Below, piece by piece: positions 804 through 5,565 of a stretch of 47,624 nt of DNA. A program made the translations under genes and the position numbers. Within the stretch, counting starts at the first letter, position 1. Each line of letters starts with the position of its first letter. Origin of the DNA: an uncultured bacterium (GTDB taxonomy: Bacteria > UBP6 > UBA1177 > JAKLFG01); NCBI GenBank assembly GCA_937871295.1, contig CALMRE010000175.1, positions 1-47,624 of the forward strand, written 5' to 3'. The notes under the pieces were generated by a model. It saw nothing but the letters and a program-made list of their open reading frames with translations, was not told the DNA's origin and did no database searches.

Positions 804-807
804 AAAT

Positions 808-872
808 GTAGGGGCGCGATTCATCGCGCCCAAATAATCGTTGACCTATCAAGGGCGCAATGAATTGCGCCC
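808..872. repeat. Pair of REP-like hairpins in inverted orientation
   Basis: Two perfect 9-bp stem-loops lie just after the kelch gene. The first is GGGCGCGATTCATCGCGCCC at 812-831. The second, at 853-872, read on the minus strand is GGGCGCAATTCATTGCGCCC. They differ at only two positions, which pair with each other in the stem (G-C becomes A-T), so the fold is kept. The flanks GTAGG and TACAAGG also match in inverted orientation. Neither hairpin is followed by a T run, so they do not look like simple intrinsic terminators. A third related copy lies at 42365-42388. Confidence 0.75.
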
Positions 873-984
873 CTTGTATATTACCCTAAGCCGTGGCGAG
901 TAGATTGTTCGCCCCTTGGGTAACCCCCGCATGTAGCAAACTCACTTGCCACGGCATTGAATCCCAAAGAGGAAAGGATTAAAA

Positions 985-1140
985 AGGTTCCGGCAACAGG
1001 CCGTTTCGCCCCCCGTCGTAAGGGTCGCAAGTAGCTTGGTCGTTGCCGGAAACCAAGGCGCAACCGTAGGCCCGAACAGTCGGTTGGTGGCAAGCACCGT
1101 ATAACAAGGACGGGACAGGTTGCAAGGCATTATAAAACAG
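985..1140 (+). ncRNA. Candidate IS110 bridge RNA
   Basis: The region between the element's left end and the recombinase start folds into successive stem-loops. TTCCGGCAAC (988-997) pairs perfectly with GTTGCCGGAA (1042-1051) around a 44-base interior, and CAACCG (1061-1066) pairs with CGGTTG (1081-1086). A small GGTG/CACC hairpin follows. In IS621-type IS110 elements a non-coding RNA in just this position has two internal loops that base-pair with target and donor DNA. The position and fold are seen here. The bridge function is inferred from the family, and the exact RNA ends and guide loops are not resolved. Confidence 0.45.
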
Positions 1141-1151
1141 CGGAGGAGGAA

Positions 1152-2105
1152 ATGGCAACAATTTTGGGGATCGATGTGAGTTCGGAGACATTGGATGCTT
1201 GCGCGCTCACCGAAGATGGAACGAAGCACTCGAAGGCATTCGTCTACTCATTGGAAGGATGTCGGAGCCTCGTCAAATGGGCTCAGAAGCATCAGGTCGG
1301 AGTCGTGGTGATGGAAGCCACGGGCGGGTATGAACAGCGCGCGGCGCTTGCGTTGGTACAGGCCGAGTTCCCGGTAAAGATCATCAACCCGAGTCAGGTT
1401 CGCAATTTCGCCAGAGGGATCGGGAAGATCGCCAAGACGGATCAGATCGACGCCTATGTCATAGCCCGTTTTGCACAAGTAGTTCCCTTGCCGGAGACCT
1501 TTCGTGTTTCCCTCGGGGAGATACGCTTGAAGCGATTGGTTCAACGGCGCGTAGTATTGATCGAGATGCTGTCGGCGGAGAAGAATCGCAAGTCTCTTGC
1601 CGACGACGAGATCATGGAAAGCATCTCGGCCATAATTGGGGTGCTTCAAAGCGAGGTCAAAAGAATCGAAAGCGCGATGGATGAGATACGGAAAGAAGAC
1701 CCGGTGATCACGCGGAAATGCGAAGTCTTAACGAAGCAAAAAGGCATTGGCTCTATCACCGCGCTCTCTTTGATCGCGCTTATGCCGGAGCTTGGTCAGA
1801 TAAACAGGAAACAGGCTGCCGCTCTCGCAGGACTCGCGCCCATTGCGCGAGACAGCGGTAAGATGAAAGGCAAACGATTCATTTCCGGTGGCCGCTTCGA
1901 TGTCAGGCGTGCGCTGTATATGCCGGCATGGGTGTCCGTTCAGCGTGATCCGGAAATGCGCGATAGCTATGAAAGACTGGTCGGAAAGGGTAAATTAAAA
2001 AAGGTGGCTATCGTTGCCATCATGCGAAAACTACTCATAAGATCGAATGCATTGCTTAATAGATATTGCTTCGGAGGGGGCGTGGTCAACGAAAGTTTTT
2101 GTTGA
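1152..2105 (+). CDS. IS110-family transposase (DEDD recombinase)
   Basis: This 317-residue protein catalyses excision and insertion of the element. The N-terminal RuvC-like DEDD domain has LGIDVSSE (D8), VVMEATGGYE (E55) and KTDQIDAYVIARF (D97, D100). The C-terminal transposase_20 (IS116/IS110/IS902) part has GLAPIARDSGKMKGKRFISG, where S234 is the likely nucleophile, then DVRRALY. The length is close to the IS621-like norm, and no stop or frameshift is present, so the enzyme looks functional. A strong ribosome site GGAGGAGG (1142-1149) sets the start. Base composition is less GC-rich than in the housekeeping genes around it, as expected for a mobile gene. Confidence 0.93.
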   Translation: MATILGIDVSSETLDACALTEDGTKHSKAFVYSLEGCRSLVKWAQKHQVGVVVMEATGGYEQRAALALVQAEFPVKIINPSQVRNFARGIGKIAKTDQIDAYVIARFAQVVPLPETFRVSLGEIRLKRLVQRRVVLIEMLSAEKNRKSLADDEIMESISAIIGVLQSEVKRIESAMDEIRKEDPVITRKCEVLTKQKGIGSITALSLIALMPELGQINRKQAAALAGLAPIARDSGKMKGKRFISGGRFDVRRALYMPAWVSVQRDPEMRDSYERLVGKGKLKKVAIVAIMRKLLIRSNALLNRYCFGGGVVNESFC

Positions 2106-2164
2106 CAACCAAGACAGTCGCTACAACGCCGCGACACCTTCCGCCCCATTGTGCCCTCCAAGGG

Positions 2165-2302: not shown

Positions 2303-3718
2303 CTATGCTTTTCGTAGGATATCCTTCAGCGTAACGATATGGTGAAAATAGTCGCTTTCCCGAAGTGACTTGTCGGGCCCGTAGATGCTGATAAGCGCCC
2401 GTTCCACCGTATGTCCCCGCGGTATTTTGAGCAGTCTGCATTTCCGTTCGACCGCCGGGATGACCTGCGGCCCGATCTCGCGGTCCTGATACTTGATCTC
2501 ACAGACGGTAATGACCTTGTCGGAACGGCGATAGACCAGATCGATCTGAAACCGTTCATCACTTCTGCCGAAATAGGGGGCGGCGCGCAGGACCGTATCC
2601 TCAAAACCCATGATGCGGGCAAGTATTCCCGCATATTTGAGGCAGAAACGCTCGAAGGCGAATCCGAGCCAGATGTCGAAACTGTCCTTGGTGATCACCT
2701 CGAACAACTTTCGCGAGGTTGATTCCCGGATAGTCGACAGATTCGGCGCCATATACTTGAAATAGAAAGAGAGAAATTCGTCGACCAGCGTATAGGCCCG
2801 GAATTTCGACCGGGAATCTCGATCGAAAGGAACGACCGAGCGGATGATGTCGGCATGTTCGAGGTTGTCGAGATAAAGTTTCAGTCCCCCTCCCGACGGG
2901 ATGCCGAGCCGGACCGATATCTCCCCGGCGCTCAGGGAACCGCTCTGCAGTAAAGTGACGATCTGCTGATAGGTGCGCCCCTCGCGGAATTGACTATAGA
3001 AAATACGGTCGGGTTCATTGAGCATGAGGCCGGCGGGAGAAAAACAGAGGCGATTCATGTTCTGTTCGAAGGATTGGGAACAGTCTATTTCCTCAAGGTA
3101 TTTGGGAACCGTGCCGAACACCATCTGATATTTCAGCAATTCCTCTTCGCTGCGCCTGTCTTTGAAAAAGCGGATCGCCTCGTCGGGGAAAAGTCCGCGA
3201 AGCAGTATCTCGGCATTCACCCGGCCATATAATGCCTTGGAAGAAAGGACCCTGCGGACCATGAAGGAGGCAACCGATCCGCAGAGGATGAGCATCACCT
3301 TCTTTTTCTTCCAGAAGTTGTCCCAGAAGTATTTGATGATGCTGATGAGTTTTCCCTGTCCCGCGGCCATCCATTGAAGTTCGTCGAAGAAAAGGACCGG
3401 CTTTGCCCCGCTGTCCGTTTTCAGCAGGTGGTCGGTCAAATACGCGAAAACATCGTTCCAGTTCCGGAACTGCAGCGAAGCGGCAAGCGACTCTTCCTTC
3501 TGGGCGAAAAGTTGAGCGGTGAAATGTTGTATCTGCCCGCCGGTGTCGAGACCCTCCAAGGCTTCGAAACGGTAGAATTTCTTCTTCCCCGCGCCAAACT
3601 CCTCGACAAGGCGGCTTTTCCCGATCCGGCGCCTGCCGTAAATGACCACCAGCCGCCCATCGGCGGCACGGTAGGCTTGATCGAGTATCTTGGTCTCTTT
3701 TTCCCGTCCGACGAACAT
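2303..3718 (-). CDS. AAA-type ATPase with DUF234 nuclease-like C-terminus
   Basis: This 471-residue protein belongs to the archaeal-ATPase/DUF234 family. MFVGREKE opens the protein, followed by the P-loop GRRRIGKSRLVEEF at about residues 27-40 and a Walker B-like VLFFDELQWM at about residue 115. A winged-helix-like middle has GEISVRLGIPSGG, and the C-terminal DUF234 part has QIDLVYRRS....VCEIKY, a D..ExK pattern like that of PD-(D/E)XK nucleases. The family is common in archaea and in anaerobic bacteria. Its role is unknown, though mobile or defence-linked contexts are frequent. I chose the ATG at 3718 over a GTG at 3733 because GCGGAG lies just upstream of it. The gene lies between a relic and an intact copy of the nucleoside kinase 5' end, and its own promoter carries repeat operators. 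Confidence 0.85.
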   Translation of the reverse strand: MFVGREKETKILDQAYRAADGRLVVIYGRRRIGKSRLVEEFGAGKKKFYRFEALEGLDTGGQIQHFTAQLFAQKEESLAASLQFRNWNDVFAYLTDHLLKTDSGAKPVLFFDELQWMAAGQGKLISIIKYFWDNFWKKKKVMLILCGSVASFMVRRVLSSKALYGRVNAEILLRGLFPDEAIRFFKDRRSEEELLKYQMVFGTVPKYLEEIDCSQSFEQNMNRLCFSPAGLMLNEPDRIFYSQFREGRTYQQIVTLLQSGSLSAGEISVRLGIPSGGGLKLYLDNLEHADIIRSVVPFDRDSRSKFRAYTLVDEFLSFYFKYMAPNLSTIRESTSRKLFEVITKDSFDIWLGFAFERFCLKYAGILARIMGFEDTVLRAAPYFGRSDERFQIDLVYRRSDKVITVCEIKYQDREIGPQVIPAVERKCRLLKIPRGHTVERALISIYGPDKSLRESDYFHHIVTLKDILRKA

Positions 3719-3747
3719 GGCTTTTCTCCGCACCGGTTTTCAAAAAA

Positions 3748-3835: not shown

Positions 3836-3864
3836 TTTACATTCCTCCTCCGGTGTGCTATACT
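3836..3864 (+). promoter_or_regulatory. Promoter of the nucleoside kinase gene
   Basis: TTTACA (3836-3841), a 17-bp spacer and TATACT (3859-3864), with TG one base before the -10 as in extended -10 promoters. The same arrangement is kept in the relic at 2169-2197. Because the promoter covers 3853-3864, an in-frame GTG at 3853 cannot be the real start. Confidence 0.75.
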
Positions 3865-3891
3865 GCTTTTCCACTGTTGACGGAGCACCCG

Positions 3892-5565
3892 ATGGCCGAA
3901 GAACATGCCGTGCAGATGATACTTCCCGACGGGAAGCAGGAGGAACTCCAACTCTCGCCGGGCGCCCACCTGAAGACGCTCGCCGACCGGTTCGCCGACC
4001 GATTCGACCTGCCGATACTCGGCGCGATCTGTGACAACCGCGTGGTGTCGCTCGAGGGGAAGGTCAACACCTTCTCAAGCATCGAGTTCATCACGATGCG
4101 CGACAAGAACGGGCGGCTCATCTTCCTCCGGTCGCTCCTGTTCGTCTTCATCAAGGCGGCAAAGGAGATGTTCCCCCACGCCCAATTGCACATCGAATAC
4201 GGCATCGGCAACGGCCTCTACTGCTATTTCGAAGGGCTCGAATGGATACGACTCGAAGAGGTCGAGGAACTCGAAAAGAAGATGCGCAGTATCATCGCGC
4301 AGGACCTCCGCTTCATCCGCAAGGAGATGCCGACGCCCGAGGCGGTGCGACTCTTCAAGGAGGCGGGCCTGCAGGATAAGGTGCGGATATTCTCGACGCG
4401 GACCGACGAAACATCGAGCGTCTACTACCTCGGCGGGCTCATCGATTATTTCTACGGCCACCTCGCCTACTCGACCGGCGCCATCACCGATTTCCGCCTG
4501 CAGTACTACAACCGCGGCATCGTGCTGCTCATCCCCGACCAGCACGACCCGACGAAGGTCGAGGCGTTCAAGGACCAGCCGAAGTTCTTCAACATCATCA
4601 CCGAGAACAAGAAGTGGCTCGACATCCTCGATCTCGAGAACTGCGGGCAACTCAACGAGGCGGTGCGACGCGGCCGCGCCAAGGAGATCGTGCTGGTGCA
4701 GGAATCGCTCCACGAGAAGAAACTGGCCATCATCGCCGACGAGATACACCGCCGCCGCGAGACGGTGCGGGTCATCTCCATCGCCGGCCCCTCCTCGTCG
4801 GGCAAGACCACGACCGCCAAGCGGCTCGCGATACAACTGCGGGTGAACGGGTTCCGGCCGATACTCATCAGTCTCGACAACTACTTCGTCGACCGCGACA
4901 AGACCCCGAAGGACGCGAGCGGCAAGCACGATTTCGAGGGGCTCGACGCGATCGATGTGGCGCTCTTCAACGAGCAGGTGCTGAGGCTCCTGCAGGGGAA
5001 GGGGACCAACCTCCAGCGGTACGATTTCCTTACCGGCAAAAGCACGCGCGGCGAAACGAAATACCGCCTGCCCAAGAACGGAATCATCATCGTCGAGGGT
5101 ATCCACGGGCTCAACCCGCAGCTCTTCACCGAACTCAACTACGACCGCACCTACAAGATCTATGTCTCGGCGCTCGCCAACCTCAACATCGACCACCACA
5201 ACCGTATCCCGACCACCGACTGCCGGCTCATCCGCCGCATGGTCCGCGACGCGCAGTTCCGCGGCCACGACGCCATCGAGACGATAGACCGCTGGCCTTC
5301 GGTGCGGCGCGGCGAGGAGCGCAACATCTTCCCGTATCAGGAACGGGCCGACATCATGTTCAACTCGTCGCTCGTCTACGAACTCTCGGTCCTGCGCAAG
5401 TACGCCGAACCGATCCTGCAGAAGATAACTCCCGACCGGCGCGAGCACCTCGAGGCGCGGCGGCTCCTCAAGTTCCTCTCCTTTTTCGAGCCGATCGATG
5501 AGACCGTCATCCCGTTCAACTCGATCATCCGCGAGTTCATCGGCGGCTCGGCCTTCGACTATTGA
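3892..5565 (+). CDS. TGS-domain nucleoside (uridine) kinase
   Basis: This 557-residue protein has an N-terminal TGS/threonyl-tRNA-synthetase-like half (about residues 1-270) fused to a C-terminal uridine/phosphoribulokinase-type P-loop kinase. The P-loop GPSSSGKTT is at 299-307, followed by ISLDNYFVDRDKTP, the DFEGLDAID lid region and IIVEGIHGLNP. Such fused nucleoside kinases are widespread in Firmicutes, Thermotoga and deltaproteobacteria; they phosphorylate a nucleoside, probably uridine, in salvage. The exact substrate is not shown by sequence. The ATG at 3892 follows CGGAG and fits the promoter position. The first codons and promoter also exist as a relic at 2165. No following gene shares the transcript, since folP has its own promoter. 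Confidence 0.88.
   Translation: MAEEHAVQMILPDGKQEELQLSPGAHLKTLADRFADRFDLPILGAICDNRVVSLEGKVNTFSSIEFITMRDKNGRLIFLRSLLFVFIKAAKEMFPHAQLHIEYGIGNGLYCYFEGLEWIRLEEVEELEKKMRSIIAQDLRFIRKEMPTPEAVRLFKEAGLQDKVRIFSTRTDETSSVYYLGGLIDYFYGHLAYSTGAITDFRLQYYNRGIVLLIPDQHDPTKVEAFKDQPKFFNIITENKKWLDILDLENCGQLNEAVRRGRAKEIVLVQESLHEKKLAIIADEIHRRRETVRVISIAGPSSSGKTTTAKRLAIQLRVNGFRPILISLDNYFVDRDKTPKDASGKHDFEGLDAIDVALFNEQVLRLLQGKGTNLQRYDFLTGKSTRGETKYRLPKNGIIIVEGIHGLNPQLFTELNYDRTYKIYVSALANLNIDHHNRIPTTDCRLIRRMVRDAQFRGHDAIETIDRWPSVRRGEERNIFPYQERADIMFNSSLVYELSVLRKYAEPILQKITPDRREHLEARRLLKFLSFFEPIDETVIPFNSIIREFIGGSAFDY

Follow-up and report, generated by a model that had tools for sequence, protein, structure and literature searches.

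A complete IS110-group insertion sequence (IS) was identified at positions 875-2122 of contig CALMRE010000175.1 (assembly GCA_937871295.1), a stretch of 47,624 nucleotides from an uncultured bacterium (GTDB lineage Bacteria; UBP6; UBA1177; JAKLFG01) that was analyzed as a whole and is hereafter called the window. Present as a single copy within its own genome, the element consists of a non-coding left end (LE), a recombinase gene and a short right end (RE). Comparative analysis points to a sequence that very probably moves by bridge-RNA-guided recombination, and whose clade carries, besides the target-binding loop (TBL) and the donor-binding loop (DBL) of the putative RNA, a third module, here called M.

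Architecture of the element and its insertion site

The element is inserted at the foot of a repetitive extragenic palindrome (REP)-like repeat, which reads ...GCGCCCCT-AC across the insertion, with the core dinucleotide CT at both junctions. Intact copies in other parts of this genome and across its genome family read ...GCGCCCCTAC or near. The repeat is interrupted after CCCCT at position 874 and CTAC resumes at 2121-2124, which places the core CT at 873-874 and 2121-2122 and gives an LE of 277 nt and an RE of 15 nt, with element ends at 873/875 and 2120/2122. The repeat pattern was found at 11 places with at most three mismatches, three of them in the window copy, against two for a control pattern. 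REP-like repeats (window 806-874; loci L006 and L059-L064) were also seen to recur in the genome and its family, in many cases paired in inverted orientation, with GTAG/CTAC feet. In four near-relative genomes examined for an empty insertion site, no place was seen with both flanks together.

The recombinase (open reading frame [ORF] 1152-2105) matches the domains PF01548 (9e-26) and PF02371 (3e-17) and, among solved structures, the recombinases of ISCro4 (PDB 9t56, 5e-39) and IS621 (8wt6, 5e-37). Residues D8, E55, D97, D100 and S235 are all present, in agreement with the original prediction, made from the sequence alone, of an intact IS110 element with a full set of catalytic residues. For the positions that lack a stated IS621 equivalent, the assignment to the catalytic set is presumed from family knowledge. 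The equivalents themselves are based on D102 and S241, given as catalytic residues of IS621 in the consulted text of PMC11208158. The DEDD RuvC-like domain, the Tnp domain with its serine, the long LE with short RE and the identical core at both junctions are traits of the IS110 group; the long RNA-bearing RE of the IS1111 group is not matched, the RE here being 15 nt long and the RNA lying in the LE. Once joined, the two ends would give TTGACA-17 bp-TATATT, which reads as a sigma-70-type promoter sequence, and the same junction layout (TTGACA or TTGACT, TATATT or TATAAT) recurs in the related elements L010-L012, L080 and L081. A promoter formed at the joined RE-LE junction is described for IS621 in the accessible text of PMC11208160 and PMC11208158.

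Target and donor loops of the putative bridge RNA

The original prediction had proposed a candidate bridge RNA ahead of the recombinase, with a long stem enclosing 44 bases and a second stem-loop. Both structures were recovered: residues 890-900 pair with 945-955 around an interior of exactly 44 bases (901-944; z -4.0), and the second stem-loop lies at 986-1054 (z -3.2), none of 200 dinucleotide shuffles folding as well in either case. A third module, the DBL at 1060-1123, was absent from that prediction; its fold has z -2.0, with 7 of 200 shuffles as good or better, and the stretch 889-1135 as a whole folds moderately above shuffles (z -2.5, 1/200).

The loops hold guides for both flanks and both element ends, and these ends include the whole region in which the RNA had been predicted. 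In the TBL, the left guide TTCGCCCCT matches the flank TGCGCCCCT (866-874) at eight of nine positions and the right guide TGTAG matches CTACA of the right flank. In the DBL, ACAGTCG, the left donor guide (LDG), is identical to the element end (7/7), and CAAG, the right donor guide (RDG), matches CTTG at 873-876 (4/4). Comparison of the internal loops with the flanks, proposed along with the prediction, gave matches at both junctions. The handshake bases fit as C937:G2120 and G1109:C872 and do not pair with their own DNA. When the left end was shuffled 20,000 times with its dinucleotide content kept, the four guide matches, paired as in the real RNA, never occurred jointly. In the window, no separate 5' stem-loop was found after the inferred RNA start, the module order being TBL, M, DBL (Table 1).

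Table 1. Features of the IS110-group element and its insertion site; all positions refer to the window.
Feature	Position	Strand	Remarks
REP-like palindromic repeat, left part of insertion site	806..874	+	Left target (LT) = TGCGCCC 866-872; other copies end ...GCGCCCCTAC
Core dinucleotide CT, left junction	873..874	+	All 15 compared elements begin CT-TGTA
LE, non-coding, putatively bridge RNA-encoding, 277 nt	875..1151	+	
-10-like TATATT	877..882	+	17-bp spacing from TTGACA 2102-2107 only at the RE-LE junction of a circle
TBL	889..955	+	Left guide TTCGCCCCT 908-916; right guide (T)GTAG 932-936; handshake C937
Extra TBL-like module M	986..1054	+	Left-guide-like TTCGCCCC 1005-1012; right guide GCAAGTAGC 1027-1035
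DBL	1060..1123	+	LDG ACAGTCG 1076-1082; RDG CAAG 1105-1108; handshake G1109
IS110-group DEDD/serine recombinase, 317 aa	1152..2105	+	Domain, PDB and residue matches
RE, 15 nt	2106..2120	+	Left donor (LD) = ACAGTCG 2114-2120; -35-like TTGACA 2102-2107 begins within the ORF end
Core CT and first two bases (AC) of the right target (RT)	2121..2124	+	Completes the REP foot CTAC

From this anatomy the following course can be proposed. Excision would join the element ends into a circle, and the promoter of the joined ends would drive an RNA spanning roughly 889-1123. Its TBL would pair with REP-like palindromes at their foot (LT-CT-AC; predicted target GCGCCCCTACA) and its DBL with the joined ends (ACAGTCG-CT-TG), while the recombinase would carry out strand exchange at the CT core. 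At position 7, the handshake of TBL C937 with LD G2120 and of DBL G1109 with LT C872 is predicted to form after this exchange and not before it. M, conserved over large divergence, would be a duplicated target-type loop inserted between the other two.

Relatives and tracking of guides with targets

The clade comprises the window element together with seven relatives that are 44-54% identical to it (L010, L011, L012, L080, L081, L082 and L018), of which L018 and L082 have no left end in the assembly and are hence unscored for M. Matched genomes numbered 25 of 99 (E ≤ 0.001), 5 of 142 (E ≤ 1e-40, all five with clade members), 9 of 396 (E ≤ 1e-40, two clade) and 10 of 396 (E ≤ 1e-60, five clade), the genome sets overlapping. 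Viral contigs held no relative, either by protein or by alignment, and of 99 stretches with the pattern AAGACAGTCGCTAC in these contigs none carried a recombinase. Loops were compared in 15 elements, six of the clade and nine of an outgroup, the further relatives L083 and L085-L093 being outside this assessment.

All six clade members with left ends start with CT-TGTATA and show GACAGTCG-CT-AC on the right side. Each of their left flanks has CCCCT at its end; judged by eye, that of L080 is no palindrome foot and the other five are. The right end of L082 (minus strand) reads GACAGTCG-AT-AC in place of -CT-AC. Left guides agree with their own flank at nine of nine positions in L010 (ATCGCCCCT) and in L080 and L081 (both TTCGCCCCT), at eight in the window and at seven in L011 and L012. 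In close relatives the target guides shift with the target, as between L010 and L011 and between L012 and L080; the latter pair is near-identical, yet LT (flank) and left target guide (guide) differ together. Over the 15 elements, relatives among which are non-independent, the own-flank matches sum to 111, a value reached by none of 20,000 flank swaps (mean 7.4/9 versus 6.3). Within the clade of six, the TBL own-flank sum is reached by 12 of 720 permutations. A covariance model of the DBL finds its six source elements and also L104, L105, L107, L108, L084 and L086 at E ≤ 0.011. In the left end of L107, a plasmid-borne IS110 element, a very large hairpin was noted 5' of the target loop, possibly an expanded bridge RNA.

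An additional target-type module between the two loops

M lies between TBL and DBL in each of the six clade elements that have a left end, and was detected in none of the nine other elements by eye and by model. It is built of an outer stem, a bulged or mismatched A, an inner stem, a G, a left-guide-like NNNGCCC, a hairpin and a right guide. The inner stem has one mismatch each in L012 and L081. M carries GNNNGTAGC and compensatory stem changes, the outer stem showing both-sided pair changes at alignment columns 181/250, 182/249, 186/245 and 187/244. The motif G-N3-GTAGC occurs exactly twice per clade left end, once in the TBL and once in M, and shuffling each element 2000 times gave two or more copies in 2-14 cases. 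In the recombinase tree, in which the IS621 protein is truncated and forms a long branch and the nine no-M labels come from inspection by eye and model search, the M carriers and L018 fall into one clade (100/98). In L081 (2515-2640, minus strand), short repeats (GTACTGT / GGAAGTAT) expand the hairpin of M, and another stem-loop was seen 5' of the target loop.

From five members a covariance model of M was built, which finds M in these at 57-90 bits, by construction. In the window it gives the TBL 21.1 bits (E 5.5e-5 in 301 bases), compared with 0.1 bits for the DBL. When filters were switched off, its matches included the TBLs of the clade members L081 (15.6 bits), L012 (15.0), L080 (11.8) and L010 (8.9, partial) and of the outgroup elements L013 (20.3), L108 (17.4), L019 (14.7), L105 (14.2) and L084 (13.1). 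Since the model matches TBLs and scores the window DBL at only 0.1 bits, M is target-loop-like; judged by these sequence models, the stem-loop at 986-1054 is an additional target-type module and not a donor loop.

Site counts offer a view on whether M acts as a guide. In the register GCC-CT, counts against a reversed-pattern control were 8/57 in the window's own genome (G000), 3/20 in G099, 6/42 in G217, 1/0 in G100 and 2/3 in G220. In the register GCCC-CT (class HYHGCCCCTAC) they were 43/95, 59/55, 194/98, 7/1 and 14/3, respectively. The pattern MMYAGCCCTAC was observed to be under-represented relative to its reverse in G000 (8 vs 57), G099 and G217. A listing of sites covering G099, G217, G220 and G100, with G000 outside it, gave M-specified sites in 0 of 29, 1 of 100, 1 of 14 and 1 of 7 of the sites listed, respectively. 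In the same listing, the TBL site TTCGCCCCTAC accounted for 28 of the 100 sites listed for G217, among which it was the commonest (next 23 and 20), and for 3 of the 14 listed for G220, and ATCGCCCCTAC for 4 of the 29 listed for G099. The proposal that M aims at a second abundant REP was discarded, as the counts show no enrichment where countable. An internal promoter between TBL and M, which would give a separate RNA of M and DBL and was suggested by eye in L012 and L081, was likewise abandoned: a scan of window positions 840-1160 gave no forward promoter-like site. The sequence TTGCCA-18-TATAAT (11/12; 0.2 expected in shuffles) at 1129-1158 on the minus strand, directed from the recombinase start towards the left end, resembles a promoter and could yield an RNA antisense to the bridge RNA.

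Alternative explanations

Several observations weigh against a bridge RNA of this anatomy. The fold energy of the whole region 873-1151 is ordinary (z -1.4; 19 of 200 shuffles as good), so that the case rests on anatomy and comparison. An Rfam scan gave a single tRNA and no matching RNA family, and the left guide of the window has one mismatch to its target. Own LTs rank first, ties counted, in only 8 of the 15 elements, and some best flank matches (L011, L013) fall outside the loop. The covariance among relatives foreseen by the prediction was found in part: compensatory changes occur in 17 of 58 consensus pairs across five related left ends, while the RNAalifold covariation term is slightly unfavourable overall (+0.92 kcal/mol). 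The DBL model has no match at E ≤ 1 in L013, L019, L106 and L110. The M model finds no TBL match in L104, L106, L107 and L110, its outgroup TBL scores are weak (E 0.01-0.7) with chance matches of 13-15 bits interspersed, and it misses the M of L081 with its expanded hairpin, matching the TBL of that element instead. The single genomic copy and the guide mismatch would also suit a dead relic with fortuitous matches, a reading that we regard as very improbable against an intact ORF with all catalytic residues, the guide and handshake matches and a guide set found in 0 of 20,000 shuffles. Even less credible is a different RNA, such as a riboswitch or an attenuator acting on the recombinase gene; a structured RNA does stand immediately 5' of this gene, but Rfam offers no match, the loop sequences match flanks and element ends, and guides covary with targets. 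Guided movement of an IS110-group element with a third module remains our strongly preferred account.

The role of M is harder to assign. Because it is kept across recombinases 44-54% identical to that of the window, M is probably in use by its elements. A bridge RNA with three guide modules and three DNA specificities (two targets and the donor, or one for excision), the TBL being reprogrammed and M fixed, is possible, if doubtful. In the window, the left guide of M equals that of the TBL over eight bases. Against guiding, the left guide of M fails to follow the insertion site (its own sum is reached in 208 of 720 permutations), the bases facing the core are CT in 0 of 6 members, and sites of M type show no enrichment in the genomes that allowed a count. 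The same lack of tracking and enrichment, together with the conserved G-N3-GTAGC and stem geometry, would fit a pure protein-binding or folding scaffold, that is, a duplicated loop kept for recombinase contacts whose guide positions no longer pair with DNA. A helper role that raises RNA binding is reported for the 5' stem-loop of IS621 in the available text of PMC11208158. However, the conserved GTAG is exactly the right guide for the REP foot CTAC, beyond the needs of protein contact, and positions 4-7 of the left part retain the GCCC that the window, L010, L080 and L081 have in their targets; we consider such a scaffold a tentative option on the improbable side. An excision loop aiding recognition of the hybrid junctions of the integrated element (LD-CT-RT or LT-CT-RD; RD, right donor) is unlikely. 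The GTAGC of M can pair with GCTAC, formed at the right junction by the LD end base, the core and RT, and the part of the bridge RNA complex in natural excision is called unclear in the passages available from PMC11208158, but by eye the left guide of M matches LD (ACAGTCG) in none of six members and LT only partly, and the ordinary TBL holds the same GTAGC. Most likely, M is a duplicated target module serving as an auxiliary or ancestral target-binding loop, a preference over scaffold and excision that we hold lightly.

Neighbouring genes

Upstream of the insertion site lies a Kelch-repeat gene (36-803), whose 3' end resembles others in the genome (L002, L003; 86-91%). Downstream, the element adjoins an ATPase gene of ATPase_2/DUF234 type (2303-3733, minus strand). 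The stretch 2188-2264 is 81% identical to 3855-3933 and represents a partial duplicate of the upstream region and first codons of gene 3853-5565 (uridine-kinase-like, by eye); this copy sits downstream of the element and is cut off ahead of the ATPase gene.

Comparison with known systems

The IS110-group element IS621 of E. coli (L110), as described in the text consulted of PMC11208160 and PMC11208158, shares with the window element an LE-encoded RNA, the order of target then donor loop, a CT core and a short RE; its junction promoter has a putative counterpart in the window. The two also share the RDG CAAG and the right guide GTAG, set against a REP foot CTAC in each, and their recombinases are homologous over nearly the full length. 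They differ in that the left guide of the window element is for a different REP foot, in that its RNA would begin directly at the TBL without a separate 5' stem-loop, and in the extra TBL-like M between TBL and DBL. The original prediction is largely upheld, with two corrections: its second stem-loop is an additional target-type loop, and the specificity, predicted as new, is for REP-like palindromes, the site class of IS621 as well. The ISCro4 recombinase (PDB 9t56) is by sequence the closest solved protein (5e-39), a comparison of proteins only.

The two-loop IS110 elements L013, L019, L084 and L104-L108, from a Verrucomicrobiota metagenome-assembled genome, other genomes and plasmids, share the CT-TGTA left end and, by eye, the TBL-DBL layout of the window. 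Their right guides match RT by eye (e.g. CTAACGG in L019, CTTCACG in L084 and CTTGCGG in L105). Unlike the window clade, they lack a module between the two loops; the M model scores at most 20.3 bits in them, on a TBL, against 57-90 bits for true M.

As far as the accessible portions of PMC11208160 and PMC11208158 go, bridge RNAs of the IS621 type contain a single target loop and a single donor loop; bridge RNA structures are diverse, and a multi-loop donor region occurs in many IS1111 elements (PMC11208160, same portions). Further related literature includes the seekRNA paper (PMC11187229, of which part was available). A three-module bridge RNA was not met in the open literature text, and figures, supplements, preprints or subscription papers may already show one. 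Bridge RNAs being known as bispecific, a natural, conserved three-module form would, if true, show how loops are gained, and such an RNA might address two targets. M could likewise offer a handle on the excision of integrated IS110 elements, described as unclear in the open part of PMC11208158. Irrespective of its role, L012/L080 and L010/L011 are clear natural reprogramming pairs, and REP-like targets are added in lineages represented here by assembled genomes alone. The IS110 group gains a genuine new member in this element, which its three-module RNA sets apart as a variant.
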